Assembly: GCA_037783545.1 (NCBI GenBank)
Contig: JBBELK010000560.1
Coordinates: 285,298 to 349,297 of the forward strand
From: Henricia sp. BOLD:AAB3569
Lineage: Eukaryota; Echinodermata; Asteroidea; Spinulosida; Echinasteridae
Length of the DNA: 64,000 nucleotides
Reading direction: 5' to 3'
The first letter of the stretch is position 1. The number at the start of each line of letters is the position of its first letter. Below the pieces are notes generated by a model. It saw only the letters and a list, made by a program, of their open reading frames with translations, was not told where the DNA came from and made no database searches. The position numbers and the translations under genes are program-made. Shown piece after piece: positions 7,982 to 44,254 of this stretch.

Positions 7982-7983
7982 TA

Positions 7984-8720
7984 CCCTTACAAAAATTACC
8001 CATGGCGATTTCCCATGGCATTCCCATGGCGTTTTCCCTTGGTGTTTTCCCATGGTGTTTTCCCATTGGGTGGACATGGTGTTCATCATGGGGTTTTGGC
8101 CACCATGAAGCCATGGGACTTCTCATAGGACCATGACACCATGGTAATTCTCCCATGTACGACATGGTGTTTCTCCCATGCACTTCATGGTATTTTCTTA
8201 TGCTCCCTGTGGTGTTTTTACCATGTACCGCATGGCGTTTGCACTATGTACCGCATGGCATTTTCCCCATGTACCGCATGGCATTTTCCCCATGTACCGC
8301 ATGTACTACACGGCGTTTTCACCATGTACCGCATGGCGTTTTCCCCATGTACCCCATGGCGTTTCCCCCATGAAATCCAAGGTATTTCCCCGCTACTACC
8401 CCATGGTGCTACCCCATGGCGTTTTCCCATATACTGCATGGCATTTCTCCCATTCACCCCATGGCGTTTTCCCCATGTACTACACGGTGTTTCTGTCATC
8501 CACCCCATGGCATTTTCACCATGTACCCCATGGCGTTTCCCCCATGAAATCCAAGGTATTTCTTCTCTACTACTCCATGGTGCTACACCATGTACTTCAT
8601 GGTATTTCTCCCATTTACCCCATGGCGTTTTACCCATGTACTGCACAGTGTTTCTGTTGTTCACCCTATGCGTTTTCCCCATGTGCTACCTGACATTTCT
8701 CCCATCCATCCCACGGTAAT
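7984..8720. repeat. Left subterminal CCATGG-rich repeat array
   Basis: From the left terminus onward the sequence repeats degenerate units of roughly 30 bp around palindromic CCATGG or CATGG followed by CGTTTTCCC or TATTTC. Spaced variants include CCATGTACCGCATGGCG and CCCATGAAATCCAAGG. The long reading frames on both strands arise from the repeat period and are not genes. Its position matches the subterminal transposase- or TnpA-binding regions of plant En/Spm elements. Confidence 0.75.
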
Positions 8721-8901
8721 TCAGTTTTGAGATGACCCAGATAATATGGCGAAATGTTCACTTCCCTTTAATTGTACTCTATACATACGTAAACAGTTAC
8801 AAAGAATAGCTAGATTGGAATTTGGCAAGCATTTCAGCACATCTCATATAAATGTAGAAATGCGAGTCTACATATAAACATAAACAGCATTTAATTATGT
8901 A

Positions 8902-9206
8902 CAGTCGAACCTTAATAACAGAATATCTGTACTTTTTAGATTGTAAGAGGAACGTTGCTTTATCAAAAAAACAAACAATGAGAACCAAAAACTTGGGACG
9001 GACAGTTTTCCTTAATAGAGCCTTTGTACGGCGGCCATGACGGGGGCAATCACACTGTTACCATGTGTCGTGCATGAGTAGGTGCTTTGTGGTTCTATTG
9101 TTACATCATTTAAATAAAAAAACCTGCCCCGTCATGACCGCCGGTGCAGAAGCTCTATACAAGCAAACTGTTGTTAGTACTCTTATTATTAAGGTTCAGT
9201 TGTAAT
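8902..9206. mobile_element. Two nested foldback repeats
   Basis: Outer arms CAGTCGAACCTTAATAA and TTATTAAGGTTCAGTTG are inverted. Inner arms TAGAGCCTTTGTACGGCGG and its partner ending in GCAGAAGCTCTA are also inverted around 9016..9160. This suggests a MITE inserted into another short element, or one MITE with two-tier ends. Non-coding. Confidence 0.65.
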
Positions 9207-9554
9207 TTCTATTCGAGGCATTTTTATCGTTCTACCAGTGCCAACAATTAACACAAGACAATTTTAAACTAATAAATCACTGCTTGTTTTGATAATATAG
9301 TACATACATGACCATGCAAACTACAAAAACTGAATAACAATTTGGTATTATTAAATAGAACACAAACAAATGGGTTTAAAGGCAGTATACATGATTGGTA
9401 TCTCGAAAATCATAAATGTTCACGCCTTACTTACACAATATAAACGTGATGACCGTAGAAAACTTCACCTGACATGGTTTTGTCTGAAGTGCGATAGTCT
9501 TTGAGAAATGAGTAAAACAATTATTTGTCGTCTCATGAGACGAAAATTCAATTC

Positions 9555-9690
9555 ACCCCAAAACCATTTCGCCTAAGTGCCATTTCGCCCCCAAACCACA
9601 TCGCCCAAATGCTACTTCGCCCAAAAACCACTTAGTGCACGGCCCTTGTTGAGGGCGAAGTAGTTTTGGGGCGAAATGACTGCAGACCCT
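9555..9690. mobile_element. Foldback repeat, GGCGAAATGG type
   Basis: Repeated CATTTCGCC, CACATCGCCC and CTTCGCCC motifs on one side face GGGCGAAGTAGTTTTGGGGCG on the other. It is a short palindromic repeat with no coding capacity. The rest of 9210..10480 shows only AT-rich sequence without a supportable gene. Confidence 0.6.
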
Positions 9691-10481
9691 TTTTGACTGT
9701 TTTCCCAAAAGTTAGACGAAGTACGGAGCTGGTTTTTGCTCAGGATGGTTTTAATCATGCATATCTTCAATCACGAGGGGGATAAAACTATTTGTAATTT
9801 ACAGTTTACCAATCATGTACATGCATGTATACCTTTAAAATGGAGCACCATTATGCAGTTAAAGTAACAATCGACAGTAAAACAAAAACACTAAAACTAG
9901 AACTGTCTGTTTCGAAACACCTACAACAAGGAAGCTTTTCTGGCTTTGGCTAAATTATACAAAACATCACAAACACCAAGCATCACTAATACCAAGTTAC
10001 ATCTTCTTCAATTCAATAAAAATGTCTTTATCTTTAAGTATGAATCCGTGTTACTGATTAGTTGATCCACTACAAGAGCAGCGACATTCTATGTACCATC
10101 TCCAGATTGTATGTCACACTCGCAATAAAGCGCCCTGACATTGCAAGTCACGCATCGCATCCCAATGCAGGATGATTTATGGCCGTGTATAAAAGACACT
10201 ACTGTAGTGAAACTAAAAAGTGACGTGTGCGTTATGGTCCCATGCAGTTGTGCGAGATTATCTGCATGTAAGTGCTTCCCGCCATCCCCGCGGGAAGTTT
10301 GTTTAAAGACAAATTTGTTATCCATCTGGCACTTGTGGAATGCGGCATAATATTGCACATAAAATTGTAAATGTATGCATTTAGCGCTTGTACATGTAGT
10401 TCTCAATATTATTACTGCACTCTGTGACTGCCCTTCCACTTGTTTAAATACCAAGATAATTTATATCTTTCCAAGTTGACT

Positions 10482-10613
10482 TAAAGGCACAGGCTTGTCA
10501 GCGATGCGCGTGCGCATATTTCGTGCCACGAAATACGCAGCTCCATAGCAAAGCTGCGTATTTCGTGGCGTGAAATTGGCGCGCGCGCATTGCTGACGAG
10601 CCCTCTGCCTTTA
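10482..10613. mobile_element. Palindromic MITE, TAAAGGCACAGGC type
   Basis: A ~130-bp near-perfect palindrome with arms TAAAGGCACAGGCTTGTCAGC and GCTGACGAGCCCTCTGCCTTTA. The centre is built on CACGAAATACGCAG and its complement. A half copy of the same end (CCGACGAGCCTGTGCCCTTAA) occurs at about 11915..11938. Confidence 0.75.
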
Positions 10614-11234
10614 AGGATTAAAGTGGCTTGGCGAGATAATGTGAAAAATCATTGACCTAATTTAACCATATTTCTGTATAATTTAGAAAAATTTTCACAA
10701 AATCTTCTGAGAATTTGCAATGTTTTAAGTATTTTTCATCAGGCTCATCATTTTCTTTTCTTCAGATAATAGATATCAAAGTGACAAATCAGCAAAATTG
10801 GTATCATGCATGAGACATACTCTGGTTGACGTGAAAAGTGTTGTGCGCATGGGACACATGTACATTTACTTCCAAAACGAAATGTCTAGAATTAAATTTG
10901 TGGGTGCCCATATTGCTTGTTTAAGCCCAACATACAGAATATTTAATTTTTAAAAATAAGGAAAAAAAAACTGGTAAATTAACCGGCAGTTATTGCTAAA
11001 CTTTATTTTGAAATACAAAGAATGTACCTTCCGGAAGCTCCTCTTTGCAGTTCCGAGGATTAAAATTTGCGCATATCTTAAAAGGGAATTATACCACAGA
11101 AACAAAAGACCTTGTGCTTAACAAGTGCATGTCGTGAATTTTAATTTTAAAAAACAAGAAATATCACCCACTGAAAAGCGAATACGAACATCACAAAGAA
11201 GGACAGTTTCAGCGGTGCATTGCACTATGGGCAA

Positions 11235-11632
11235 TTAGTAGAGGAACAGTCCTAATGTTCCGTGACACTTTCACGGGGACAAAGGTTTGAGAGTGGGTTT
11301 GGGTTGCCTGAGGGTTACTGAAAAAAGTGCATTGACCTTTCCACATTTCCGGTCACAGTGACCTAACGAGTGGTCAGATAGGTCAAACTATATATTTTTG
11401 GATTTAGTATGACAAGACGAGTAATTTGATATGCATTTTATTAAGATTGGGGCATTATTTTTAACTTGACCCCTATTGACCCCTGTTTTGACCCATACAA
11501 AAAATGCTGACATTTTGAAGAGGGTTACCCAAGCTAGATTTGTTCAGTAACCCTCAGGCAACCCAAAACCACTCTCAAACCTTTGTCCCCATGAAAGTGT
11601 CATGGAACATTACGATTGTTCCTCTTCTAAAT
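11235..11632. mobile_element. Foldback element with ~90-bp arms
   Basis: The left arm (GAGGAACAGTCCTAATGTTCC through GAGAGTGGGTTTGGGTTGCC to GAGGGTTACTGAA) matches the reverse complement of 11545..11632. The ~220-bp centre contains TTGACCCCTATTGACCCCTG. It has no coding capacity and lies downstream of the BEN gene's stop codon. Confidence 0.75.
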
Positions 11633-12032
11633 GCCATTTTGTCCGAATACTTAGCAAAAAAAGTCCTTGTGGCAATACAGTATTTGACCAAGATGGCGGC
11701 GCAATTACTGCAATTTCCCTTTAAGATCAGAAAAATGTCAATGGTTAACTGACATTACAGTTTAAGGGCATTTTGGACCACATAAGTCTTCGTTACCAAA
11801 TAATTTAAAAAGAAGTTAGTGTAAAGGCAAGTTATTGTTAACTATTTGTACCGGTACATATTTTTTCATCATAAAATAGCGATGAAAAAAATGTGTGGGA
11901 TTTGGCGCGCTCGCATTCCCGACGAGCCTGTGCCCTTAAGCAAAAGCAAATAGAATTACATGTACATGTATATATACAATGTCCTTAAAATGTAATATCA
12001 GTTAACCATGGACTTGCAAAACAAACAAAAAG

Positions 12033-15000
12033 TTACTTGTTATCCTGATGTGATTTGGTGTTTGAGCTCCTGATGTCTTTTAGCTTGTAAGCCATCACCT
12101 GGTGGATTTGGCCACGTTCCGCCGTGGGAAATTTTTTGGTTACATATACTGTTAACAAAAAAGACAAATGTTTATAAGTTCATGCACACTGTATACTTGC
12201 TGTTAGATCGGAATTGAAAACAAGGCTAAATTACAAGCAATACGGTTCTTTTGTACTTACATACAATGGCCTTTACAGCGTCTTGAGGGAGTGCTGGTCT
12301 GCAGTCTTTACTGGAGTGCACTCCCACACCTTTCTTCCCCATCACACTGGACACTACCATCTGTTCACGTGTGAAGAGGGCACACATCAGATCTCTGGTT
12401 AGCTTTCTAAAATCTGAATGTGTGCACCTCTTCAGAACATGAACTGGCAGTGTCAAATCTGGTCCCTGAAAAGAATTTATAAATTAAACAAAATTACAAA
12501 CTCATCTTTTGACATTAAAAAAAACAATATCAAACAAGTTTTGGAAGAGCACAGAGAATGCATCTTTAAGTTAATAATTCAGAGTTACTCAGTAGTGGGA
12601 TGTCAAGAATTTAACATTCGTAACTCATAAATTGGGAGATGCAAGATTACTTGTAAATCAAACTGAACACGTTTGATTTTTTGGGCAAATAAACTTTTAT
12701 ACATAATACAAACTTATTAGGTCTTGCTATGTCTTTGTAGGCCCAATGATTTTTCTGGGATCATGAAAAAGAAGGAATTTACGGAATGTAACCATTGAAC
12801 TGGATTCAGTATTCAACACACAACAAGTTACTTCCCAATACGTTCTCAAGGAGCAGATGTTTAATTGCCATATGATTAGTGCAACCTGCCAAGTCGAGGG
12901 ATTTTTTCGTGTTACTCTTACCAATGACTGCTGGATGTTTTAAATTTTAAAGTTTTTTTTCCCGCAAAGAATGAGAGGTTGTGGAAATATTGTATCAGTT
13001 ATTGTTTAAATTGGGGTGGACACCAAACAAAAAACACGACACAGAGTTTTAGATGTTTGGAATGAAATTTTCTTCTATCTGAAACAGAAAATCATCACTG
13101 TTATTAGTTAAGTTATTAGTTTCCATTTAAAGTGATTTCGGACAGTCCCAGCGGATTTGCTTTTAATAAGAGCTGGCATTGTAAGTAATGTACATTAGAT
13201 TATAAAAAAAAATATTAAAACCAACCAGCTCATAGTTAACACCAGCACTGCAGGAAGATTCTCCCTCTGACGGTGCTCTGCTTGGTCCACTTGTACTGGT
13301 ACTGCAACTTGGGGTGCTTGGAGTGGTACAAGTACTTGTACTTGCAACAGTGCTGGGACTGCTACAAAAACTTGTACTTGCACCAGGAGTGCTTTGTATG
13401 CGTCTGACCAGGCTGTCCATTTTTGCAACTATACCAGGTAAACCTTTTGTGTGTAAAAGAATGTAATAACTGTGAATCACATTATCATTTTATTATTCCA
13501 TTAGCACGACTATCCTTAACTAGAAGATTACCAGTTCGGCCAATGATTAATGGCTACCTTTATCACAAGACAAAATTACACACTGTGCAAAGCACATGAA
13601 GCCATAAAATCCCATTTTAAAAAATGTAAAACTAAATGCAGGTCACCTTTACATCATTATAAATTCAGCGTGTTTAAAGGTGAAATTTGAAGCCAAACTT
13701 TTTGCGTGTACTTCATTGCATTTCAAAACAAGGTTTCAAAGTTTCTAGGAATTGTCACGGTCACAGAAGCAGTAAAAAACTGGTCTGAACTGCTACATTT
13801 AGCTGTGTGTCTATACGTGACAATATTTCAGTAAAATATGCCTTATTTATGTGAAGGTCAGAACAGAACAAGGAACATAAAATTCTCTTCCAAAATCTTG
13901 AGGTTTGGGATGTACAATACTTACCATTCATCAAGGCCTCGTTTTGGCTCTGTAGTTTCTTCAGCCGTTCTTGCAACACGGCACATTGTGTGCAAGTGGA
14001 GTCCTTGGCCTTGGTGCAAGCGGAGTCCTTGGCCTTCAGTTTTGTCAGTATGGCCTCCACTTGCAACTGCTTAGCCCGTTTTACCTTCAGTTAAATATGA
14101 CAATGTCAATCTTTGTACATGTAATGCCCATCTCACACAATTCTGAAATGTAATTATCTATTTCTATGCTCTTTATTTTTTTCTTTCTATTAAACCACTG
14201 ATTTTGAAGACGTTTAGCCCTCAATTAGCTATTTCTTTGGGAAAGTTCGTGTGCGTGCATGTGCAACTGTATATACATGTATTTTTCATAAACTGACAAG
14301 AACTAGCTATAGCTTACCATTTTTGATTTTTGCTTTTGCTTCGGCCTCGAGTCCAATTCGGCCGACACTCCACCCTCTTCCTCTTCATCATCCTCCAGGT
14401 CCATCTCCTCAAAAAACCTTTTTCGCTTGACGTGGCGGTGGCCTCTACCAACAATTGCCTCCTCATCATCAACATACATTTCTTCATCCGATGAGAGCTG
14501 CCCGATGAACATCTCTTCCTTCTTCCTGAGGACACTGAGCTTATCTGATGAAATGAAACAAAATATTGGTACCTACCCGTATGTTCACAGACACAGTTAG
14601 TTGACAATCTGAAAAAACCTAGATAATCAGTTTAGAAAACTAAACAATGCACATTAAATCACAACAAATCCCTCAAATCCTAACAAATACAATGTCGATT
14701 GAAACTCATGCACTGTATAAAAAAGCGGAAAAAAAAGCAAAATTATGTCCGGAGAAAAAAAAGCGGAAATTAAATTTTGGCACATTGAAAACAAAAAAGC
14801 TGAAATCAGCTAAAAATCTGAAATATGTACATGCGCGAGAGCTAGACTGGTTTGATGCTGTCCTCATATTTACTTCCCTTAATCTTGTACGACGAAGGGA
14901 GGTAAATATGAGGACAGCGAACAGTCTAGTGTTGACTTCTCCGCTCTCGCGCATGCGCATAATTGATTTGGGGGCAATTAAACAGTCACGGAGGGTCTCA

Positions 15001-15530
15001 ATTTAGCCCCACGGTTTCAATGAAACTAGACATCGGATCGATGCGTACTCTTCGCAATATTTGAACATTGGGGCCACCTATTGACATGATTAAGCAAATA
15101 TCAGAGCCAAGGGACAAATTTTATTTGTGTGAGTTTGCCACAGATTTGGGGTTAGAATATCGAGTTTGTAGGAGTCGAGTTGGCAAACGGTCGAGTTGAC
15201 TGTAAACCCCTGTAATGCTGTATATACTTATATAATAAGCTATAGATTCCAATATATAAATTTACCTATAAATTCCGTGTTGAATCTGAACGAAAAAATA
15301 ACACAAATAAATTTAATATTCCATTCATGATCATTACCATCGACTGACAAAACTCTTCCGTCGTGCTTCGTCCATCCACTAGCAGGTTCTTTTTTATTTA
15401 CAGGTGCTGCACAAATCTTTCCGACTTGTATTTCGTTCTCCAGTTGGCTTTTGTCCAAGACTGCAGACACTGGAACAACGCTGGTGCTGTTATCTGCTAC
15501 CCACAGAATCAATGCGTATTTTCCTGGCAT
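12033..15530 (-). CDS. BEN-domain protein, six exons, intact
   Basis: Six exons with consistent GT-AG sites and matching phases: 15338..15530, 14318..14544, 13925..14084, 13226..13443, 12261..12465 and 12033..12148. Total 1,119 nt, 372 aa plus stop. Exon 1 starts MPGKYALILWVADNS. Exon 2 is acidic with a basic KRKR patch, possibly a nuclear signal. Exon 3 looks coiled-coil and has a CTQC motif. Exon 4 is Ser/Thr/Pro-rich. Exons 5-6 form the BEN domain, with TRDLMCALFT, ALPQDAVKAIV and KKFPTAERGQIH. BEN domains bind DNA or act in chromatin complexes. The gene lies wholly inside the 13.9-kb transposon, divergent to its transposase, suggesting a transposon-encoded DNA-binding partner. A host gene captured by the element is the alternative. 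Confidence 0.85.
14838..14955. mobile_element. Foldback MITE, CTAGACTGG type
   Basis: The arms GAGAGCTAGACTGGTTTGAT and ACAGCGAACAGTCTAGTGTT face each other around CATATTTACTTCCCTT and its complement. It lies inside intron 1 of the BEN gene. A second member with TAGACTGGTCCCCTGTCC ends is at 15657..15757. Confidence 0.7.
15236..15300. repeat. Dispersed repeat shared with ~1400..1460
   Basis: The stretch ATTCCAATATATAAATTTACC followed by TCCGTGTT occurs here and at about 1417..1450, outside the transposon, in the same orientation. It is a short piece of an unidentified dispersed repeat. It lies in BEN intron 1, next to the exon 1 donor. Confidence 0.5.
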
Positions 15531-15933
15531 TTTAACTGATCAAAAGAATAAGGTCACAGGCCAAAGTGCAAAGAATTGAATCAATATCGACGATCTGTTG
15601 AAACGAATGTAAACTGAAATTTGCGCGCACGTGCAGTTTCTTTTTGTGCTGCCACGTTAGACTGGTCCCCTGTCCATGTGCGCTACGCTGCTAATATGCG
15701 CGCATGCGACGAAGGCTGACGAAGGGAAGTAAATATCAGGACAAGGGACCAGTCTACTGCCACGTCGCCGGGCGTGACGTTTCGTGTACACACATGAAGG
15801 AACGTCACCGGATGAGCGTACACGTATGCTGATGACGTATACCTCAACATTTACAAGGCCGGATCCGGAAGGGACATGCACGCACGACATAATTTGGGAA
15901 TCTCATGAGTAAAATCTGCACTTCTTTTCGACT
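15531..15933. promoter_or_regulatory. Divergent intergenic region between BEN and transposase genes
   Basis: This 403-bp spacer separates the BEN start codon (minus) from the transposase start codon (plus), so both promoters should lie here, perhaps as one bidirectional promoter. It is CpG-rich around 15650..15860, unlike the AT-rich surroundings. It contains a MITE at 15657..15757. No clear TATA box is visible, and promoter activity is inferred from position only. Confidence 0.5.
15657..15757. mobile_element. MITE with TAGACTGGTCCCCTGTCC ends
   Basis: The terminal inverted repeat TAGACTGGTCCCCTGTCC is matched by GGACAAGGGACCAGTCTA at the right, around a GCGCGCATGCG core. It is related to 14838..14955 through its GACGAAGGG and GTAAATAT motifs. 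It lies in the divergent promoter region, so it may alter expression of either gene. Confidence 0.8.
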
Positions 15934-18900
15934 ATGGATCGAAAGAATTGGAAACCATATCGGGTGCATTACAAACGTTATTTACTTGGAGAAGGTAGTG
16001 ATGTTCCTAGAACCACAAAACGTCGATGGAGAGACCATGAAGATTTTCGAGATCGGCAGGATGATGCCGCCGTGCACGGGCACGGTACAGCTCAAGACAC
16101 GGGTACGCTAGTACCGGAAGTTCTTGAGCTAGAAGACGGCCACGGACACTATGATAACAGAGAAGCCCCTTCGCCTCAACAAAACGCAAATGAAGTAGGT
16201 CACTCCAAAATAGGGACTTGGGGGAAATAGGAAGAGTTGGGAGGTTGATCACTGCATCATTATTGTTGATCAGAATTGTTATTCTTTAATTAGGCCTAAA
16301 ATGAATCATAGGCCTACTTTAACTTAAAAGTACATTGGAATGTGCAGATTTGATGTGAAAATCCATAATTTTGAGTGGGAAAAAATTTAAGATTTTGTGA
16401 GGAAACACTTTCAGCCCGTCTTATATGTTTTATGTCTAGCTGCATGAAGCCCTGATCAACTTCCCAATAGTGCACCGCACTAATGCTAAAAATTGAATTT
16501 TCAATGCTCGTTACGTCACGTCACGTCACGCAACCAAGCCACCTCGGACAACGAAATCAGCCATGTGCATGCTGTGAACGGGGTGTGTGTTTCAATATGC
16601 AGGAGTGTCGTTTTAAGGGTAACCGAAATAGACTTCAACCAGTTCACATGCATATTTTTACCCCCTTTTTAAATTCAAGTTTTATCATTTGCTTTGGTAG
16701 GGGTCTACGTTCGACCGTTCTACAGATGGCAGTGCATGTAGACATTTAAATGACGAGGAGCCTGCTTACTGGGACGAGGAACCTTCAGATACAGGTGGAG
16801 ATGATGGGTCTGGCAATGAGGATGAGAAGGCTTCTGATGGGGACGATGCACCTACCAATGGGGAGGACAAGCCCTCCGATGATGAGCCTTCTGATGATGA
16901 GCCTTCTGATGATGAGCCTTCTGATGATGAGCCTTCTGATGATGAGCCTTCTGATGATGAGCCTTCTGACGTGAACAGTGACCCTTCTGACAGAGACGAT
17001 GACCCTGCTGGAACGGTGACAATCAACCCATTTTTGAAGGATCGGAATTAACGGTTGGCCAAGTAGTTACCATGATTTATGCATATGCATTGAAGCATTC
17101 ACTGACCAAAGTGGCTTTACAGGATCTTTTGAAATTCATCGAAACAATCATTGGTCCTAGCAATATACCTAGCACTTTGTTTATGTTGAACAAATATATA
17201 CATAGTACAAAGGAAAGGATCAAGGTACACTTTTATTGTCCTGAATGTTTGATTTATATTGGCGATTTAGCTGAAAATGCGACGGACATAACTTGCAATA
17301 ACTGCAATAAGCAGCATTCACGTTCAGGTTTGGTTAAAGAAGGCACTTTTTTCTTGGTGAATTCCTTAAAGTTGCAGTTAATAGACGTCTTCGAGAACCA
17401 TAATATTACTCAACACTTGGCATACAAGCACAGTAGACAGAAATTAAGTGCTGAAAATATTGAAGATGTTTTCGATGGGCACATCTATAAATCAATCCCG
17501 GAACTCCAAAGTGATGATAATATATCACTTACGTGGAACACCGATGGTGTTCCAGTTTTTAAGTCTTCCAACACGTCCATGTGGCCAATCCAGTGTAGCA
17601 TCAATGAATTGCCTCCAAAACTACGAAAAAGTAACTTACTGTTGACTGGTCTGTGGTTTGGAGAGGGAAAACCCGACCCTCAAGTTTTTCTTCAACCATT
17701 TATTGATGAATGCAATAGTTTAGCAGAAACGGGTTTCACATGGACTGATCATGAATCGGGCGTTCAGAAAACATCTAAAGTTTTCAACCTAATATGTACA
17801 TGTGACTCAGTAGCGAGATGCACTTTGCAAAACATCAAACAGTTCAATGGCAAATTTGGTTGTGCATGGTGTTTGCAAGAGGGTACACGTGTAGAAAAAG
17901 GCAGAGGACATGTGCATGTTTACCCGTATGTAGATCCTCCAGCCGAAGAGCGCAATTCTAGGCAAACAATGGAGGATGCTGAAGAAGCCTTTGCATTGAA
18001 GGAAACTGTACACGGTGTTAAAGGACCATCGATCCTTATGTTGCTCACAGCATTTAACATAATTATAGGATTTCCAGTAGATTACCTCCACAACAGCCTT
18101 CTTGGGGTAACAAGATATTTTGGAAATCTCTGGCTAGACTCCACTAATAATGCTGCAGCGTACTATGTAGGAAGGGAAATTGGCAAAATAGATGAAAAAT
18201 TAACAAGTATTACACCACCTAATAACTTGACAAGGGCTCCCAGATCTTTATCTCAAAGACGATTTTGGAAAGGTTCAGAGTGGAGGTCTTGGCTATTGTT
18301 TTATTCCATTCCTTGTTTACTAGGTGTGCTTGACAACATATATCTCAAGCACTGGCTTTTGTTAGTCCACAGCTTATCTCTGTTACTGTCGGAGTCAATA
18401 TCAGAGGCCGATTTGAATAACGCAGATGTGATGTTGAACAAGTTTGTTCTAATGGTTGGGGTACTTTATGGAGAAGCACACAACACTTACAATGTTCACC
18501 AGCTACTTCACCTTGTTCCAACTGTGCGAAATACAGGACCTTTGTGGGCAAGTTCAACATTTTTGTTTGAATCGTACAATGGGAATTTGCTCAAAATGTT
18601 TCACGGTACCCAAGGCGTCTCAAGTCAGATTATCAACAATTTTACTATATGGCAACATATGCCAAAGCTAATGTCTAGGTTTGTAAACAATACATCCCCA
18701 AATGTAGAAAAATATTGCAGCATGATGTTAGACGGATTATTATCCACAAAACATGCTTTCCAAGTGGCAGTAGATGTAACCGTATTAGGGTGTCCAAAAT
18801 TCCGCCAACCAACTCTTGAAGAAAGATTAATTCTAATAATCTGAACTTTTACGACCGTGTGATTGTTAAGAGGAAGTTGATTCATATCAAGGGATATGAT

Positions 18901-19215
18901 AGAGTTTCACGTCGAAATTCTTCCATTGTCTTATTTTGTGATGGATCATTCGGTATTGTGGATGGTATCTGTGTTGCAGAGAACACATGTTATTTATTAT
19001 ATCACCCTGTACATGTGAACAGACAAAGGCGAATCTTGCATGAGCGTCAAACCGGTGCCTGTGCCCCCCATATTAAAGTTGTGACAAGCATCAGTAACAA
19101 CATTAATGTATGTCGACCGGAAACAGTTAAGAGCAAATGCATCTTTCTTGAGAAAAAGCATCTGTTCCCCCATTACTTTGTGATGACATTCCCCAACACC
19201 ATAGAGAGTGATTGA
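15934..19215 (+). pseudogene. tnp2-type (EnSpm/CACTA-like) transposase, two frameshifts
   Basis: Exon 1 (15934..16194, 87 codons, MDRKNWKPYRVHYKRYL) ends at GAA|GTAGGT. Exon 2 starts at 16701 after GGTAG in the same phase and carries an acidic run with six DDEPS repeats. One missing base near 17012 shifts to the main frame (ORF from 17072). That frame has a CPEC/CNNC zinc ribbon (residues 56-78), NTDGVPVFKSS (156-166, first catalytic Asp likely), LLTGLWFGEGKPDP, ICTCDSVAR (second Asp likely) and CAWCLQEG, all tnp2 hallmarks. A second shift near 18840 moves the C-terminal tail (DRVSRRNSSIV to FPNTIESD) to a third frame. These lesions make it a probable pseudogene unless they are assembly errors. 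Confidence 0.85.
16874..16970 (+). repeat. 12-bp coding minisatellite (DDEP-S units)
   Basis: About seven to eight near-perfect copies of the 12-bp unit GATGAGCCTTCT encode the acidic DDEPS run of transposase exon 2. The period is a multiple of three, so copy changes keep the frame. Long frames on the other strand and in the other phase (SSSEG, MMSLL) are by-products. Confidence 0.85.
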
Positions 19216-20760
19216 AGGTGTATTACATGTATTAACCTGCTTCAGCTAAATTGTCCCAAGCAAACTATCAAGTTTGCCGTTTTAATTGTTGCTAATCTTT
19301 TTGCCATAGCTACAATGTATATTAATAATTAAAATGAAAAACTGTACTAAAAATACACAGCCAAAATATGGCTCACTTTCTTTTAGTTCAAATTGCTTTG
19401 GGTATAGTGTACATGTAGTTTGGACTCATTCGGACACCATTGCTATGCAGACAACACTAAATTGTACCATTCTCTCCTGATAAGGTGGGGGATCAGGAAA
19501 CTGCCCTCAGCTAGGTATTTCCAGAGAATTCAAAAATCCACAAAAGATTTGTACATATATACTAACAGAAAGGAGTGCAGTGAATACCAACCTTATTTTG
19601 TTTCCACATTGAAATTGGGGATTTCAATTAGGTTAGGTTAAAAAGAATGACAAATCTGGTAACGCTCCTTTAATTTCACATTTGTTTAAAATTGCTTATG
19701 CTAATATTTAATTACATGTAAGTTGTACAGTATTTATAAACTGTACTTTGTAAAATTTTGCTGTAATCTTGTAATGCGCCATGAGTACACATACACCTTT
19801 GTGGTAGATATGCGCTCTGTAGAAAATCGCATTCTTTTTATTATAGGTTTTCCTGTTCAGTTTTAACAAAATACCTTTCAACAAAATACCCATGTTCATT
19901 TCAGATGCATTTTTTTTAGCGCAAATTTGAATTCAGTTGGGGATCATGCATCCTTCAATTATTTAAAGAGAGCATTCAATTTGGCTTTTCGAGCCTGCAT
20001 AATCAGGAAAAATCTGTACTCAAATTTAAAACTACGCGCATTCAATTTTAATACACCATCGAAAATCATTCAAAATCACCCAAGCCCCGAGCTTCTTTAA
20101 ATTTAATGGAAGAATCAATGCTTTGTATATTGATTGACGCAAATTATAATTTGGATGTCTTAGCGAACAAATGTTGAAATGAAACTAAATAGCGTGCAAA
20201 TGAATAAGAACTAGAGAAATTGCGTCCTGATCAAAATCACTTGAATACATGTACGTACTTCCACAAACGAAATCGAATGCATTTCTGATAAATTTGAGCC
20301 AGAAAACCTATATTATTACTAATATTTGAATGTCAATGGCACTAATATTTTTGCTGCAGCAAGCCATTTTTAAATTGATTGTACATGTATTGTATAAAAA
20401 GCTAATTACTCAGTGCACGTGTAAACAAGGTTGTATTTGACTGGAGTTAAACAAAGTTTATTTGAAAATGTGGCATTTTGAATAAATGCTTTATTTTCCT
20501 ACACTAGCAAAGAGTGTCAATGAGTATTGATTTGTGGCGGTCATGTGCCTTTTTCATGATACAACCCAAAAGATGCTACCATTTCAATGTACAAAGGAAA
20601 AAAAAACAATCACAGTAATATGGCGGTCAGATCTAAGATATGTACTGTGCAGCTACAGACTAGCCCCTATGCTTCCATTGTGTTTTGAAAAAGAAAATGT
20701 GTTCAAATATGTTGTTCATCATTGGGCTGAAACACGGTGTTCCAATAAGTGCTCGTAAAG
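19216..20760. other. Non-coding interior of the large transposon
   Basis: This ~1.5-kb stretch between the transposase stop and the right subterminal array is AT-rich. I find no supportable gene, domain or large inverted repeat in it. A run GGTTAGGTTAA near 19631 and scattered ACATGT motifs are unremarkable. Confidence 0.5.
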
Positions 20761-21898
20761 TTGTGTTCCCATGTTGTTCATATAAGCCAACATATCGGTT
20801 TCCACATGGTGGTTTATGATATTCCATGGTGTTCCAATTTTCAAACAAGTCCCTGCCTTAACGGTTTTCAATAACTCCGTATAGTTTTCTCATGGGTCCT
20901 GATGGTATTCACATGGGCTACGATGGTGCTTTTACAGATCGTCATGGTGGTTCATGACATTCCATGTTCCCATTTTTTCAAACAATTTAAGCCTACATAT
21001 ATAAGTTTCTAGTAACTCCACATGGTGGTTTATGATACGCCATGGTGTTCACTTGGGTGTTCAAACAAGCAACCATGGCGTTCAAATAGCTGTACATGGT
21101 GTTCCCATGGTGGTTTATGATATGCCATGGTGTTCTCTTGTGTGTTCAAACAAGCAACCATGGAGTTCAAATAGCTGTACATGGTGTTCTAATGGGACGC
21201 CATGGTGGTATCTTGGGTGTTCAAACAAGCAACCGTGGCGTTCAAATAGCTGTACATGGTGTTCCCATGGTGGTTTATGATATGCCATGGTGTTCTCTTG
21301 TGTGTTCAAACAAGCAACCATGGAGTTCAAATAGCTGTACATGGTGTTCTAATGGGACGCCATGGTGGTATCTTGGGTGTTCAAACAAGCAACCGTGGCA
21401 TTCCAATAGCTGTACATGGTGTTCCCATGGGATGCCATGACGTTCAAATAGCTGTACATAGTGTTCCGATGAGACGCCATGGCGTTCAAATAGCTGTACA
21501 TGGTGTTCAAATAGATGTACATGGTGTTCCCATGGGACGCCATGGCATTAAAATAGCTGTACATGGTGTTCCCATGGGACAGCATGGCGTTCAAATAGAT
21601 GTACATGGTGTTCCCATGGGATGCCATGGCGTTCTAATAGCTGTACATGGTGTTCCCATGGGACGCCATGGCGTTCAAATAGCTGTACATGGTGTTCCCA
21701 TGGAACGCCATGCCATTCAAATAGCTGTACATGGTGTTCCCATGGGATGCCATGGTGTTTCTATTGCTGTTCATCGTGTTGACATGGGACACCATGGTGT
21801 TTTTTGTGACCACCATGATGTTACCCCAAATCGCCATGGGTTTCCCATGGTACACCATGGGGAACCCATGGCGTCGCCATGGGACATTTTTGTAAGGG
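20760..21898. repeat. Right subterminal CCATGG-rich repeat array
   Basis: Units of about 40-50 bp recur from about 21030 onward with the pattern CAAATAGCTGTACATGGTG, TTCCCATGGGACGCCATGG and CG. A less regular region rich in CATGGTGGTTTATGATA precedes them. A 160-bp block at 21095..21255 is repeated almost exactly at 21255..21415. The array runs up to the inverted terminus ATTTTTGTAAGGG. It shares the CCATGG core with the left array but not its spacer sequences. Confidence 0.78.
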
Positions 21899-21900
21899 TA

Positions 21901-22541: not shown

Positions 22542-22843
22542 ACATTTTGAAAAAATTGTCATTTGACTTTTCCCTGAAACTGTCCATTTTGTGATTGCCC
22601 AAGTTCTCATCATGAAAATGTGCATTTGATGTTTTGAAACATTTCGTAAATTTTGTTATTCCAATGAGAACACCATCTAGACAAACAAAAAATGAAAGAA
22701 CTAGACCTCACTCATTGCTTGGAAAAAAAATTACAAGTTAAGAAAAAAGTGGTCCTTAACTTTTTTTGAGTAGTGTACACATTTAATGTAACAAAAATGT
22801 ACATCTCATTTATAAGCACACTTCTTTCCCTGTGAAATCCTAC

Positions 22844-22978
22844 CTGATATGTCACAGAGAGAACCAATGAATCCATCTGGACACTCACAAATGTAGCTGC
22901 TTAATGCCCCTTCAACACCAGGAATAACACGGCAGACTCCCGCATTCAGGCACGGTGCACGACGACACGGATTAAGGT
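22844..22978 (-). CDS. EGF-like exon with long central loop
   Basis: 135 nt, acceptor TTTGCAG, donor G|GTAGGA. It encodes one EGF domain starting DLNPC, with a six-to-eight residue insertion (PGVEGALSS) between cysteines 3 and 4, and CECPDGFIGSLC at the end. All six cysteines are present. It lacks the full calcium-binding consensus. Confidence 0.9.
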
Positions 22979-23565
22979 CTGCAAAATCACAATACAGTTT
23001 GCTTATCATATTTTAATATAAAGTTCACCTTCACTCTATGTAGTAAAAAGATCTTACTTACATACATGCATTTCATTCAAACGGCCCCTAAAATGCCCTT
23101 TATTATCACGGTGCGTATATCTTTGTCTTGTTCCCTATAGTTGGGTATGATCAGTGCGTCTGCACGATAGCGCGTGTAATCTTCTGTTGTTTTGAGAGAT
23201 TCACTGTCCGCGCTGCACACTTTCTTGATCGCTGCACATTTTCCCGATCTTTTAATTGGGGAAATGAAAGATGGCGGCACTGTGATAAAGGTCTATTATT
23301 ACTTAAATCCATGCCAGGCAAACTGTTTCATTTTTGAAAAACTTTGTAACCCTTGGTTCTTATATTTCTTGCATTCAGTTTCCTGTAATACTCACACAAA
23401 AAAAGTGGGGGTAAAAACTTTGAATTATAATTTTTTCCTTCAAACAGCACCTCAAGGTAGAAAGCTTAAAAGTTATACAATTTAAAGTCTTGCATTGCGC
23501 TCCATTTCAGTAGCACTCATATAGTAGTTTCTTGGTATAAATAATACCATTTTGGAGCCCTTTAA

Positions 23566-24751: not shown

Positions 24752-25374
24752 CTACACAAAAACACACATTGGAAATAAGAGTGTAAAATGTACAGTTAGG
24801 TATGCTCTGCAAGTATGTGGGGTCTTTCCATAAATTAGGGGTTCATTTTTTTGTGTTCCCGTTACATCTGAAATCTTGTTTTTTTGTAAATTTAGGAAAC
24901 CTTCTTTAAATGCCTTATATCTCAAAGAGTGAGTACATGTACATAAAGTAAAATTCATAACAAAAATTGTGTGAAGGCCACTTTAATGGTACTGGCAAAT
25001 GCACATATTGGGTGTAATGGGAACGCCAACATGTCACACATTTGGACCTCTAATTTATAGAAAATGTAAAGCCTCTACAGTATTTGTTCATATGGGTACG
25101 GCATGGAAACTATTAATCTCATGATCATTCATCTTTTACATTCATTTCTTGTTCACTTTTAATGTTATAGTTGACCTTAAACATTTAAACGTAAAGGTTA
25201 TCAATAACTTTTCATGATAATGCTACATGTACCTAGCAGTAGCGTATGGATAAGGCTACCCAACAGTTTAATATCAATTTACTTTATTAGTTTATTGCCT
25301 AACAACTATATACCAACAACTTTAAGGTATTAATCTTCACATTAACATCATTACTCAGTAAGTGCCATATATAC

Positions 25375-25737
25375 CTGTGTATCCCTGATCCCGGATCTCA
25401 ATTGAGAATCCTCTTTCTGTCTTCTCAGAGTCTGTCAAGAATGTTATCCACATCATGTTACTCTGGGAGGTGAAACCCACAGGCATATTGGTTCCCGAAG
25501 CCTGAACTCGCACTGAGCTCTGATCCAGAATGTTATCGCCCAGCCCAATTTTCAGTAAGTCGTAACGGTTTTCCGTGATGAAATCTACGATGTTGACAGT
25601 CATGGTTCGTCCAGGTGCACCGCTGTGGATGAACCAGCGACAATTCTCCTGATTGCGATAGTTGGATGGGTAGTTTAGTGAGTGCAGCTCAATCTTGCTG
25701 TTGATTGCAAGGGTGAAGTTGTTTCTGCATCCAATGG
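25375..25737 (-). CDS. CUB-domain exon
   Basis: 363 nt (121 codons) in one exon, phase 1 on both sides; donor G|GTATAT, acceptor CCACAG. The product has the CUB pattern: C-R-N-N-F near the start, LHSLNYPSNYRNQENCRWFI around the second cysteine, the GRTMTVNIVDF strand, and MWITFLTDSEKTERGFSIEI at the end. CUB domains mediate protein-protein and calcium-dependent contacts outside the cell. The second disulphide pair typical of CUB is absent (only two cysteines), as in some family members. A LINE tail lies only about 10 bp upstream of the acceptor. Confidence 0.9.
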
Positions 25738-26683
25738 CTGTGGATAAGAGTGAGTGAGTGAGTGAGTGAGTTTGTGGTTTAACGCCATGCCGGCATCAGA
25801 GGCCATATTCATGGCGGGATTATGTTAATATATAAAAATGTTTGGTTTTGATTAAAATTAATAAAATCATGTAAGTTATGGAAAATATATGATCTTGGAA
25901 TTAGTTGTATAGATAACAAGTGGTATATTTCAATAAAATTGAAGAAACGTTGTATATAAGTACTACGTGGAATCTGGGTAGTTTTCCAAGGCAACCCCGA
26001 GGAGGCCGGTCATAGTGGATCCCCCAGACACACGGCACCGCGTCTAAATAATCCCGCAAGGTCGGCCGTTTCCCTTGCAGTTTAAGGGCCCGGGCCCCGC
26101 CGGTATTTTTACAGGTCCGCTTACCTCCGGGTGATGAAGGGACAATGGCACCGAGTGTCTGGTCAATCCCCCACACCCCGTCTCCCAGGATAAGTAGGGG
26201 TTCTTGTTCCACCGTCCCGTGTGAAATGCGAGTTTTATTCAAAAGGTCTAAATTGACATTGTAATATGAGTGAACTTTATTATAGGGAGATCAACCACGG
26301 GGCAGGGTAACACCTTGTCTCGCCGAGGCGAGCAAACCCCGGGATGGGTCCCTAAATAGTCTTATTTGGAAGAGTGAAGAGTAGATAATGGAGCAGAATT
26401 TTACAAAATGTGATAAAGTTGGGATGATTTGAGGAAATCAATAACAATATTAAATATGGATTAATGAGATTAAAATTATTTGTATGATCCCATACCGCAG
26501 TATAGGAGACAGCTACTGTCCCGCTGCAGAAGTTCCATACAGTAACCGCTACAGCATCATTGAAGTTACGACCATTCCGGGGGACGTGTAGCTGCCAATT
26601 AGCCTAACTAATAGCCTACCTAATATAAAAATGAGTAATCTAATTAGTTAAAGGGGCTACAAAGATATTGAGATTGATGGTGA

Positions 26684-29600
26684 TTATAAGATATGGTAAA
26701 GTTCAGCTAATTTAAGGAATAAAATTATGGTACTGGGATCTATATTGAATAAATCTTTTAGTGTGGTGACATGAAAATATCGATGTCTAATATCCATTAG
26801 TTCAACACATTCTACTAATAAGTGATGCATAGTCAATGGACTATCGCATGGGATACAATAAGGTTGGGGTTCTCCTTTTAGTAAAAAGGAATGGGTCAAG
26901 TGAGAATGTCCTATGCGGCATCTAGTTAGGATGACTTGGTCCCGTCGTGTTAAATTTCTATAAGGAATCCAAAATCCAAGGTTAGGTTGAATAGAATGGA
27001 GTTTATTTAATGCAAGAGTTGTCCATAATTCCTGCCATATTTGTTTTGTATATGAGCGGATAGAACTCCTCATGTCTGTATAAGGAAGAGGACATGGTTC
27101 CACTGGGAGATTTAAAGCTTTTTTTGCAAGAGAGTCTGCTTGCTCATTGCCTGCTAGACCTATGTGGCTTGGAATCCAGCAAAAAATAATATACTTATTC
27201 GAATATAGTACAGTTAATCTATTAAGAGTATCTATAAGAAAAGGATGATTTTTGTTTTGTCCGCTTAGTGATTGTAAAACTGACAGTGAATCACTAAAGA
27301 TGATGAATTTATTTTTTTTGGGATTTCAATCATGTCCAGGGCTAACAATATTGCTTTGAATTCAGCTGTATAAATGGAGCTATGGTTCGGCAGGCGAACA
27401 CTTCGTTTATGATGTTTGTAAATAGCAGCAGAGGCAACTCTTCCTTCATCTTTAGAACCATCTGTATAAATACAGCTGTGGTTAGGAAACTGAGTTTTAA
27501 ATTCATGGAAATCATTTTTAAATACTGAAGCATCAGTTTCTGATTTGTTGTGTTTAGTCATATGAAGAAAGACTTGGGGTTTACAAATTTCCCAAGGTGA
27601 GAATATACAGTATTCGGCATGAGCAATATCTTTTAAATTGAGATTTAAGGCCTGTATATGGGGTCGTAGGCGTAAGCCAAGTGGCTTAATTGTTTTGGGT
27701 TTAGCAGAGTAAATGTGTTGATACTTTGGGTTAAAAACACATAGGTAAGCTGGGTTTGATGGGTTGGCTGCTAATTTAGTAATATATTGCAAGGAAAGTT
27801 TAATACGTCTATTTTCAAGTGGTGGTTCATCTGCAGTGACATATAGACTTTCAACCGGTGATGTTCTAAAGGCTCCAAAAGATAAACGTAATCCCTGGTG
27901 GTGGACAGTATTTAGCTGTTTTAAATAGGACTTGGGTGCAGAACCATAGACAATGCTTCCATAGTCTAATTTTGATCGGATGAGTGATCTATACAACTGT
28001 AATAAGACTGAACATTCTGCTCCCCAGTCTTTATTCGCAACAGCTTTAATAATATCCATGGCTTTTAAACTTTTAATTTTAAGGGATTTGATGTGTGGTA
28101 AAAAGGATAGTTTTGAGTCAAAAATTACACCTAAAAATTTGGTTTTATTAACAACCTTAATCCTGTCCCCTCCAAGAAAGAGATCAGGATCAAAGTGAGC
28201 ATTTCTAATCCTACAGAAATGCATACACATAGTTTTTGGTTTAGAAAATTTAAAACCATTTTCAGTGGCCCATTTTTGAAGTTTATTCAGGGATAATTGG
28301 AGTTGGCGTTCAATTGTTTGCATACGGCTAGCTCTATAACAAATAAGTAAATCATCTACATAAAGTGATGTGAAAACTCCATTCTGTATAGTTTTCACAA
28401 TATTGTTAATTTTGATACTAAATAGGGTGACTGACAGTATACTTCCCTGTGGAACACCCATATCCTGTTCATGTGATTCAGAAAACGTAGAACCTATTTT
28501 AACTTTAAATTGTCTGTCTATTAGAAAATCTGCGATAAAGAGAGGTAATTTACCTCTTAGTCCCATTTCATGGAGGTCTTTCATTGTACCATACTTCCAT
28601 GTTGTGTCGTATGCCTTTTCTAGATCAAAAAATACTGCTACGGCATGTTCTTTTTTGATAAAGGCATCTCGGACGAAGGTTTCAAGTCTTACTAAGTGAT
28701 CCATGGTACTGCGGTTTTTCCTAAAGCCACACTGATAATTTGTTATTAGTCCATTGGTTTCGAGAAACCATACAAGTCTGTTATTAATCATCCTCTCCAT
28801 TGTTTTACATAAACATGAAGTGAGAGCTATTGGTCGATAGTTAGATGGATTTGTATGATCTTTGCCTGGTTTAGGTATAGGAATAACAGTAGCATGTTTC
28901 CACAATAGTGGAACATCACCAGTATCCCAGATAATATTAAAGATGTTTAACAAAGAGTTCAGACACTCATCAGGGAGGTGTTTTAATAGTTGATAATGAA
29001 TTTGGTCAGGTCCAGCAGCTGTATCATGGGATTTCTGGAGAGCTGTCATTAGTTCTTCAAATGTAAAGGGTTTATTATAATTTTCTTCATTTTTAGAAGT
29101 AAAATTTAAGCGATAGCGTTCATTCTTTTCTTTAATACGTTGAAATTCTTTCGAATAGTTATTAGTAGATGAATTTTTTTCAAATGTTTTGGCTAATTCT
29201 TCGGCTATATCTTCTTTGGAGGTAAGAAGCTCATTATCTTTTTTAAGGTGTTTAATTCCTGATTTTGCTTTTCTACCGTTCATTTTTTGGACCATATTCC
29301 AAACTTTGTTCAAGGGAGTATGTGTGGTTAATTGAGAGACATAATTTTTCCAGCTGTTTCTTTTTTTTTTATTAATAATTTGACGAGCTTTGGCTCTCAG
29401 AATTTTAACTTGGGCTAAATTTCCTGAGGTTGGATTGTGATTAAATCTTCGTTCTGCTTTTTTACGAGCTTTTCTGGCTTCCTTACATTCAAGGTCATCC
29501 CAAGGTAAATGTGGTTTAAATGGATTTGTTGATGTTTTAGGAATTGTTTTATCTGCTATAGAAATTAATATGTTTGTATAAGTACTGATTGGATTGGTTT

Positions 29601-30363
29601 CTTCAACAAATTCAATATTAATAAGTTTTTCTTTACATTGTTCAGAGAAGGATTTCCAATCAGCTTTATTAAAATTCCATTTAGGAATATATTCTTCACT
29701 AAGTGATTGATCACTTTCTAGAATGATGGGAAAGTGATCACTTCCGCATAAATCATCAAAAACCATCCATGAAAAGTCTGAAACTAGATCAGGGACAGTA
29801 AGTGTGAGGTCTATAGCCGAGTATGAGCCATAACCAGGGTGTAAGTAGGTATGAGAGCCATTATTGAGATAACAAAGTGTTTGATCAGCAATAAACTTTT
29901 CTATTATTTTACCCTTTGTATTATAATTATCAGAGCCCCAAATGGGGTTATGTCCATTAAAATCTCCTAGTAATATATATGGGGTTGGAAGCTGATCAAC
30001 AAGGTTATCTAAATCGGTTTGTTTTAAATTAAAGGTGGGTGGTATATAAATAGAACATACAGTAAATGACTTATGTAATGTGATTTGGGCAGCAATAGCT
30101 TGCAAATTAGTATTTAAGGGAATACAGCTGTGAATAATATTTTGTTTTATTAACAGTGAAGAACCACCTTTGGCTCGTTCTTCAGATGAGTCGTACGTAT
30201 TTTACATATGGTAGGATTTCAAGTTTATATTATCTGTTTCCTTCAAGTGAGTTTCCTGAAGGGCAAACAGTTCTGGGTTGTGTCTCTGAATTAAGAGCTT
30301 AATCTCATTAAAGTTACCTTTGAATCCTCTACAGTTCCATTGAATAATTTTAGCTTTGTTCAT
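26684..30363 (-). pseudogene. LINE ORF2: APE endonuclease, RT and RNase H
   Basis: ORF2 starts MNKAKIIQWNCRGFKGNF at 30363. An in-frame stop (30202..30204) interrupts the endonuclease, which continues with LLGDFNGHNPIWG and GSDHFPII. The reverse transcriptase shows AAGPDQIHYQLL, AVFFDLEKAYDTTW, GVPQGSILS and YVDDLLI. RNase H begins IYTDGSKDEGRV, and a one-base change in the A8 run (27312..27319 on plus) shifts the frame before FSDSLSVLQS and HIGLAGNEQADSLAKKA. The C-terminal part ends at 26684 and holds a zinc-finger-like C-x2-C...H-x4-C stretch (YCIPCDSPLTMHHLLVEC). Confidence 0.88.
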
Positions 30364-37497: not shown

Positions 37498-38507
37498 ATG
37501 TACTTAATCGAGTGACAGTTTCAAGTGTTCACCAGCCATCTGGTATGTACTTAATCGAGTGACAGTTTCAAGTGTTCACCAGCCATCTGGTATATGTACT
37601 TAATCGAGTGACAGTTTCAAGTGTTCACCAGCCATCTAGTATATGTACTTAATCGAGTGACAGTTTCAAGTGTTCACCAGCCATCTGGTATGTACTTAAT
37701 CGAGTGACAGTTTCAAGTGTTCACCAGCCATCTAGTATGTACTTAATCGAGTGACAGTTTCAAGTGTTCAGCAGCCATCTAGTATGTACTTAATCGAGTG
37801 ACAGTTTCAAGTGTTCAACAGCCATCTAGTATGTACTTAATCGAGTGACAGTTTCAAGTGTTAACCAGCCATCTAGTATGTACTTAATCGAGTGACAGTT
37901 TCAAGTGTTCACCAGCCATCTAGTATGTACTTAATCGAGTGACAGTTTCAAGTGTTCACCAGCCATCTGGTATGTACTTAATCGAGTGACAGTTTCAAGT
38001 GTTCACCAGCCATCTAGTATGTACTTAATCGAGTGACAGTTTCAAGTGTTCACCAGCCATCTAGTATGTACTTAATCGAGTGACAGTTTCAAGTGTTCAC
38101 CAGCCATCTAGTATGTACTTAATCGAGTGACAGTTTCAAGTGTTCACCAGCCATCTAGTATGTACTTAATCGAGTGACAGTTTCAAGTGTTCAACAGCCA
38201 TCTCGTATGTACTTAATCGAGTGACAGTTTTAAGTGTTCACCAGCCATCTAGTATGTACTTAATCGAGTGACAGTTTCAAGTGTTCACCAGCCATCTAGT
38301 ATGTACTTAATCGAGTGACAGTAGCAGCGATCTCTGTCAGTTTTACTGAGAAAGTTTTTGAGAGAAAGTTTTATCAAAATGTTTCAGCAATTATATTACA
38401 CACTTGCTAGAAATCAACCTTATATTTCCATACTAGTCTGGTGTGAGCACAAAGCCTTCTATCAATCATGTGAGGTGGAAGGGGAAGGTAGGCATTAGCC
38501 AACTTAC

Positions 38508-38735
38508 TTATCTCACAGCGTGACCCAGTGAAACCATCAGGACATGCACAGTTGAAACCATTGATCTCATCATTGCAAACTCCATTATTCTCACACGGTT
38601 GACTCACACACTCCAGAATGTTGAAGTCACACAGTGAACCGGTGAAGCCTGGCTGGCAGGCACAGGTGAAGGAATTGACACCGTCGATACACGTGGCTCC
38701 TGGCCCACATGGGTTCTGGTTGCATTCGATAATCT
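38508..38735 (-). CDS. Exon with two EGF domains
   Basis: 228 nt, exactly two 38-codon modules; acceptor TGTGCAG, donor A|GTAAGT. Module 1: IIECNQNPCGPGATC, then FTCACQPGFTGSLC. Module 2: ILECVSQPCENNGVC, then FNCACPDGFTGSRC. All 12 cysteines are present. It arose by fusion of two one-domain exons after intron loss or by internal duplication. C-V-S-Q-P-C and C-x4-T-C fit O-glucose and O-fucose sites. Confidence 0.93.
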
Positions 38736-38894
38736 CTGCACACATGGCATCATGAAAGCAACAAAAATAAAATCTCTGATTCTCAAATACCAAAAATATA
38801 CAACAGGTGACAAAAAGTGGAGACATTTGGAATATTACGTGGCATTTGCTCTTGTAAATTGTTCATTTTTAAGATATTGCTAATGTCAACAGAA

Positions 38895-44173: not shown

Positions 44174-44254
44174 CTATGAACAAAACAGAACAAAATTAAA
44201 TAAAGTGAATACTTTTTATTTTAAAGAATTAATGAGCATTGATACAAGGAGTGT

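Follow-up and report, generated by a model that had tools for sequence, protein, structure and literature searches.

A stretch of 64,000 nt from Henricia sp. BOLD:AAB3569 (GCA_037783545.1, contig JBBELK010000560.1, positions 285,298-349,297, forward strand), referred to below as the window, was found to contain a complete DNA transposon of about 13.9 kb (window positions 7984-21898), which carries a gene for a tnp2-type transposase and, diverging from it, a gene for a BEN-domain protein, between subterminal arrays rich in CCATGG. The same pair of genes was present in every full-length copy recovered from the genome and, with a different array motif, in a second, distant family. The element is probably a cut-and-paste transposon of the animal TRC type with two element-encoded proteins, of which the BEN protein would take the part of TnpA and bind the arrays at the ends of its own element. 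An earlier description made from the letters alone (the sequence-only reading) had claimed an element with exact ends and these two genes, and this was confirmed: the 13-bp terminal repeat matches exactly, and both domains score above their Pfam cut-offs, Transposase_21 (tnp2, PF02992) at 17003-18841 with E 2.8e-9 (36.9 bits, cut-off 28.6) and BEN (PF10523) in the spliced minus-strand gene with E 3e-10 (40.6 bits, cut-off 23.2).

Copies, ends and target duplications

A 215-bp query from the left end was run against the assembly (740.7 Mb in 2104 contigs), and copies were located through this query and tnp2 only. The left end gave seven matches, namely six ends, that of the window included, and one scrap of 74 bp. 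There were six full-length copies (window, C8, C1368, C1324, C899 and C1776; 13.9-16.3 kb), with both terminal repeats free of mismatches in all of them, and these, together with further tnp2 loci, rule out a one-off insertion. All six hold tnp2 and a divergent six-exon BEN gene between the same ends, a positive outcome of the check that the sequence-only reading had proposed; two of the copies have a damaged BEN gene and one a damaged tnp2.

The terminal repeat, CCCTTACAAAAAT, is 13 bp long and identical at the two ends of the window element. As a 13-mer it is not rare by chance (three occurrences with up to two mismatches allowed, against 3.58 expected), so the ends are proven by the six independent copies and not by the motif. 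The window element interrupts a degenerate reading frame, assigned to Tc1 by appearance, and is flanked by TA on both sides, as had been reported. The further expectation that TA is the target and flanks each copy was not borne out, because every one of the six copies is flanked by a perfect 2-bp duplication and no two of these are alike (TA in the window, CT in C8, AC in C1368, CG in C1324, AG in C899 and GA in C1776), which excludes TA-specific integration. C1324 and C1776 are inserted at different points of one tandem satellite (flanks L002, L006, L012, L013, L016, L017), which therefore supplies natural empty sites: the predicted empty 26-mers of these copies occur 20 and 23 times, respectively, in the satellite (non-overlapping loci L012, L013, L016, L017). 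The predicted empty site of C899 lies in a G run and has one further occurrence, in the right flank of the same locus (L015), possibly through local duplication, and those of C8, C1368 and the window copy were not found in the retrieved sequence.

Both frames are open in three of the six copies. That of tnp2 runs from ATG to stop in five (940-950 aa), the exception being the window copy, which differs from C1368 by three substitutions, 4 extra bases and deletions of 498 bp (at 17012) and 28 bp (at 18833), the larger of which takes out intron 2 and exon edges. The layout of two intron-bearing divergent genes given in the sequence-only reading was correct, with the correction that the window's tnp2 is broken by these deletions. 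The BEN frame is open in four copies, being identical in the window, C1368 and C899, and one nucleotide different and eight residues shorter in C8; C1324 has an insertion of about 798 bp in BEN exon 4, and C1776 a 2-bp frameshift in exon 1 while its tnp2 is open. Between C1368 and C1776, the most diverged copy, differences amounted to 284 of 8481 non-coding positions, 16 of 2847 in tnp2 and 8 of 1098 in BEN (coding against non-coding, Fisher p 5e-20 for tnp2 and 6e-8 for BEN, the sites not being fully independent). A codon alignment of tnp2 (17 differences) gave nonsynonymous (dN) and synonymous (dS) rates of 0.0040 and 0.0133; differences among the open BEN copies were too few for a ratio. 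Near-identical copies with both frames open suggest that this large animal transposon of some 14 kb has moved recently. Searches of viral_contigs and genome_contigs returned no relatives.

The transposase

The models of both genes were built from sequence alone. A frame jump near 17003 in the window copy was ruled out as a natural exon border, C1368 having an intron there that the window copy has lost together with exon edges. A protein database search gave 541 matches to the transposase, and among the best 120 the nearest were a contig-derived protein (66% identical) and two partial ones, that of Acanthaster planci (74%) and another (63%), while further homologues, mostly at 37-48%, came from sea urchins, a hemichordate, Lingula, Hydra, an octocoral and fish.

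An AlphaFold2 model based on a 24-sequence alignment (predicted local distance difference test score, pLDDT, 84.6) gave 44 matches in PDB at E ≤0.001, comprising 43 RAG chains, with RAG1 first, and HzTransib; the RAG matches had template-modelling (TM) scores of 0.44-0.59 at 10-12% identity. Residues D268, C287 and C290 are invariant in the alignment, and D181, H499, H503 and E523 nearly so, in keeping with the signature of the CMCT clade (C(2)C and H(3-4)H placed between the second D and the E of a DDE triad; PMC12730594), in which the catalytic roles were assigned by eye. It is predicted to be a RAG1/Transib-like DDE enzyme, its action being judged from family and fold.

The BEN protein and the subterminal arrays

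The BEN gene has six exons with GT-AG borders on the minus strand, specifies a product of 367 aa, and shares with tnp2 the divergent intergenic stretch 15531-15933. The best PDB matches of the protein were BEND6 (7yul, E 4.9e-6) and then Insensitive (Insv; 4ix7, E 0.032). A fold model of exon 1 from the single sequence was unusable (pLDDT 47).

The left 737 bp of the window copy contain 14 CCATGG sites, the right 1139 bp 29 and the 12.0-kb middle a single one, against about 1.4 expected per array by an order-1 Markov comparison (maximum 7 in 1000 sequences), which rules out a chance origin and bears out the arrays that had been noticed at both ends. Across the six copies the counts were 9-15 (left), 25-31 (right) and 1 (middle), and in C1368 no other 6-bp palindrome came close to CCATGG in enrichment (44 array sites against 1 in the middle), the next being TGTACA (13 and 19). 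This one motif is common to both arrays, the repeat units of which are otherwise different, and in the right array of C1368 the spacing of CATG is mostly 10, 11 or 21 bp, about one or two helical turns. Inside the element and outside the CATG arrays, TTCGCCC...ACCAC units (16/32 bp) are repeated in tandem over a short stretch (window 9552-9633).

A second family and other tnp2 loci

The genome-wide tnp2 search gave at least 74 matches (125 candidates, 72 scored), made up of the six copies, fragments of the window family and other tnp2 loci at 28-60%. The fragments include C684 and C809, at 97% with stops, and pieces in C254 and C95, at 44-91% and nearly all with stops. Matches in C189, C411, C593, C603, C809 and C929 share one E-value, one score and an open frame of 658 aa and represent a distant tnp2 at 32%, another and possibly recent family.

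Family 2 was bounded in two copies (C842, 16,970 bp, and C363, 16,618 bp), with terminal inverted repeats CCCAGGTGAAAATTCC/CCCAGGAGGAAATTCC, which have CCC ends, and 2-bp duplications CC and CT. Its tnp2, an open frame of 792 aa, is 40% identical to that of the window family, and diverging from it is a BEN exon (in C842, PF10523 E 2.8e-6, 27.9 bits, exceeding the cut-off), which is also present in C363. The same side carries a coiled-coil-like exon and an N-terminal exon like BEN exon 1 of the window family (3 of 1000 shuffles score as high); the gene was read as separate exons, the last BEN helix excluded. The co-occurrence of tnp2 and BEN between common ends is repeated in a family with a distant transposase. 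The arrays of the two families differ in motif. CAACTG/CAGTTG occurs 32 times in the left 900 bp, 44 times in the right 900 bp and 6 times in the middle of C842 (29, 43 and 6 in C363), whereas neither array contains CCATGG, which is found twice in the middle. The right array also contains CCAGTTGG / CCAATTGG, 9 and 4 times, neither of which is in the left array. Past the right end of C842 there is a tandem array of TACCATGGTAC type (L040, 4313-4731).

Across the four tnp2 families examined, BEN was clear in two and weakly suggested in a third (the unbounded locus C921); in the fourth (the unbounded locus C245), where the flanks are incomplete, it was not seen. For the remaining tnp2 families the BEN screen covered at most the short loci L025-L038, where a weak BEN-like match within tnp2 of L033/L034 was judged to be chance. 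A candidate pair of ends for C921 was not accepted because the BEN-like gene would fall outside it. One exon of C245 is similar by eye to the N-terminal domain.

Proposed role of the BEN protein

In the mechanism favoured here, the transposase would cut at the CCC/GGG ends and yield the 2-bp target duplications, and CCATGG in the subterminal arrays at either end is the probable target of the BEN protein. Its coiled-coil-like stretch, recognised by eye, would allow it to oligomerise, so that it could bridge sites and join the two ends; it would help to load the transposase onto the element, and may have a further role in controlling the promoters of the element, like that of TnpA in En/Spm. BEN domains are DNA-binding, and CATG is the core of the array motif CCATGG. 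The BEN domain of human NAC1 selects ACATGT, with the CATG core needed (PMC7764960), and a NACC1-DNA structure explains the selection of CATG (PMC11472053). Fly Insv and Elba1 bind CCAATTGG (PMC7764960), and the sites CCAGTTGG/CCAATTGG in the right array of family 2 are close to it. A BEN-like fold in TnpA of Tn3 reads the terminal repeat (PMC9579193). The proposal in the sequence-only reading that the BEN protein is an animal counterpart of TnpA is thus favoured by architecture, coding constraint, the family-specific array and the published CATG preference, the binding itself being argued by analogy.

Several observations weigh against this role. By a mapping inferred from the BEND6 alignment and residue spacing, the helix-5 residues through which NACC1 contacts bases (D462, T465 and R469, the D/T/R of the CATG-binding group NACC1/NACC2) correspond to Q, A and K in the element's protein, none of the three being identical and K for R alone conservative. 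An in vivo motif of NAC1 differs from the selected one (PMC7764960), and the NAC1 and Insv motifs come from other, distant BEN proteins. The CATG spacing of the left array in C1368 is often 9, 14 or 23 bp, without the helical phasing of the right array. A word-based search among 5.8 billion proteins (proteins of about 202-642 aa sharing words) returned no BEN relatives at E 1e-3, and the BEN exons as queries gave zero candidates in the word-based protein database search. Locus C921 has divergent frames of a similar kind, in which the terminal BEN match is below the cut-off (E 0.049), and this stretch was not picked up by a four-sequence BEN profile, while the 10 kb retrieved around C245, its flanks incomplete, yielded no BEN match.

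Other explanations overlap in part, and their probabilities do not sum to one. That the transposase or some host protein occupies the arrays, BEN having nothing to do with them, is unlikely, but is the best placed of these explanations. It draws on the unmatched contact residues and on the capacity of tandem arrays to grow by replication slippage, and is at odds both with the single motif carried by two arrays of otherwise different repeat units and with the switch of that motif between the window family and family 2. Distinctly unlikely is a role confined to transcription or chromatin (as insulator, silencer or anti-silencing factor), with no part in transposition, in which the arrays would be regulatory sites of the BEN protein. 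Functions related to chromatin are known for most human BEN proteins (PMC11472053), maize TnpA acts on the promoter too (PMC1636069), and the intergenic stretch common to tnp2 and BEN is short. However, that stretch is about 6.8 kb away from the left array and 4.8 kb from the right one, and the position of the arrays beside the terminal repeats, at the very ends of the element, suits a role at the ends. Capture of BEN as a passenger host gene, once and with no role for the element, is very improbable: BEN domains do occur in animal host genes, and the gene is frameshifted in C1776, where tnp2 is open, and interrupted in exon 4 of C1324, but the divergent layout recurs in family 2 with so different a transposase, and BEN divergence between C1368 and C1776 is low.

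The TnpA-like role may extend beyond this element, in that every TRC family may have a BEN protein matched to an array motif particular to that family. That BEN is the general TnpA equivalent of animal TRC/CACTA elements, with families keeping matched pairs of BEN protein and array motif (CATG-type, CAGTTG-type, etc.), and with their co-evolution as a source of new BEN specificities that possibly feed host BEN transcription factors, is a tentative proposal, somewhat short of probable. As early as 2006, TnpA-like action was assumed for an accessory protein of an animal CACTA-related element, a protein without a recognisable relative (PMC1636069). A BEN gene beside CATG-rich arrays, repeated in family 2 with another motif, makes the question of the partner open to a gel-shift test, and the same build in this distant family suggests a possible identity for the long-unidentified partner protein of animal TRC elements.

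Features of the element and its surroundings

The features of the window element are collected in Table 1. Exons of EGF-like and CUB-like type, recognised by eye as those of a host gene, lie on the minus strand at 22806-23012, 25355-25795 and 38407-38862, and the transposon and the Tc1 relict are probably inside an intron of this gene. Two different frames typical of long interspersed nuclear elements (LINEs) were also recognised by eye, one with endonuclease and reverse transcriptase on the minus strand (27265-30201), accompanied by an RNase H-like frame (26684-27325), and the other with reverse transcriptase on the plus strand (44243-47419; 1058 aa, no stops).

Table 1. Features of the transposon, in window positions
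Feature	Positions	Strand	Basis or remark
Target-site duplication, left (TA)	7982..7983		pairs with 21899-21900
Left terminal inverted repeat CCCTTACAAAAAT	7984..7996	+	same sequence in 6/6 copies
Left subterminal array, CATG/CCATGG-rich, ~23-bp units	7997..8720		repeat and motif counts
BEN exon 6 (end of BEN domain, stop)	12033..12148	-	gene model
BEN exon 5 (BEN domain)	12261..12465	-	gene model, Pfam, PDB match
BEN exon 4 (Ser/Thr-rich)	13226..13428	-	gene model
BEN exon 3 (coiled-coil-like by eye)	13925..14084	-	gene model
BEN exon 2 (acidic and basic stretches)	14318..14544	-	gene model
BEN exon 1 (start codon; N-terminal stretch resembles that of family 2)	15338..15530	-	gene model, comparison
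tnp2 exon 1	15934..16194	+	gene model
tnp2 exon 2 (acidic repeats; 3' edge lost in 498-bp deletion)	16701..17011	+	comparison with C1368
tnp2 exon 3, catalytic core (PF02992; candidate DDE; CxxC; HxxxH)	17012..18832	+	Pfam, alignment, model
tnp2 C-terminal part (out of frame in window through 28-bp deletion, in frame in other five copies)	18833..19215	+	copy comparison
Right subterminal array, CCATGG-rich, 42-bp units	20760..21885		repeat and motif counts; spacing from C1368
Right terminal inverted repeat	21886..21898	-	same sequence in 6/6 copies
Target-site duplication, right (TA)	21899..21900		pairs with 7982-7983

Comparison with known systems

The CCC ends and the 2-bp duplications, along with a transposase of Transposase_21 type for which a RAG1-like fold is predicted, argue for placing the window element among the animal, CACTA-related TRC elements. 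These were described with Transposase_21, CCC ends and 2-bp duplications (DeMarco 2006, PMC1636069), and the combination of CCC with a 2-bp duplication has been assigned to TRC (PMC4298943); the window family has PF02992, together with terminal repeats starting CCC and a 2-bp duplication in 6 of 6 copies. In these traits it resembles SmTRC1 of Schistosoma mansoni, the TRCs of Tribolium and Aedes, and Spongebob of Hydra (PMC1636069, PMC4298943), and it resembles SmTRC1 also in having accessory coding capacity (PMC1636069). The authors could relate the accessory proteins of SmTRC to nothing known and proposed a TnpA-like DNA-binding role for them; these proteins arise by alternative splicing (PMC1636069), whereas in the window element the partner has a gene to itself, divergent from tnp2 and with a recognisable BEN domain. 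Large family-specific arrays set the window element apart from TRC elements as described there, as does the size of the copies, 13.9-16.3 kb against about 5.2 kb in Tribolium, 9.2 kb in Aedes and 5.8 kb for Spongebob (PMC1636069, PMC4298943).

The superfamily is a known one, and the BEN pairing is apparently the new part within the literature searched. The sequence-only reading knew of no animal element with this pairing; in agreement, the pairing was not found among titles, the starts of abstracts and some passages, mostly without subscription journals or Repbase, where it may be recorded, and in PMC5704228 'BEN domain' occurs in the reference list only. The statement needs qualifying in that the TRC group fits the transposase and ends (PMC1636069).

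A plant-type CACTA/EnSpm element was ruled out by the CCC ends and 2-bp duplication, where CACTA ends and a 3-bp duplication would be expected. Short motifs are repeated in the subterminal regions of En/Spm, as in the window element. Plant En/Spm (TnpD and TnpA) also has in common with it a tnp2 transposase and a DNA-binding second protein (PMC4158355, PMC1636069). It differs in its CACTA ends and 3-bp duplication, and in being one alternatively spliced unit instead of two divergent genes, one with a BEN domain (PMC4158355, PMC1636069). With the CMCT clade, which includes RAG1/Transib, the likeness lies in the predicted RAG1-like fold and in CxxC and HxxxH between the second D and E, but the termini are CCC..GGG and not the CA..TG of most CMCT lineages (PMC12730594).

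The second protein shares the BEN domain with NAC1/NACC1, BEND6 and Insensitive, and NAC1 has the core motif CATG, but the element's protein is transposon-encoded and has another N-terminus and other base-contacting residues. DBD1 of Tn3 TnpA is alike in being a BEN-like fold that binds transposon ends, although DBD1 is a domain inside a bacterial transposase and the BEN of the window element a separate protein (PMC9579193). BEN chromatin factors would thereby be linked to the binding of transposon ends, as in Tn3.

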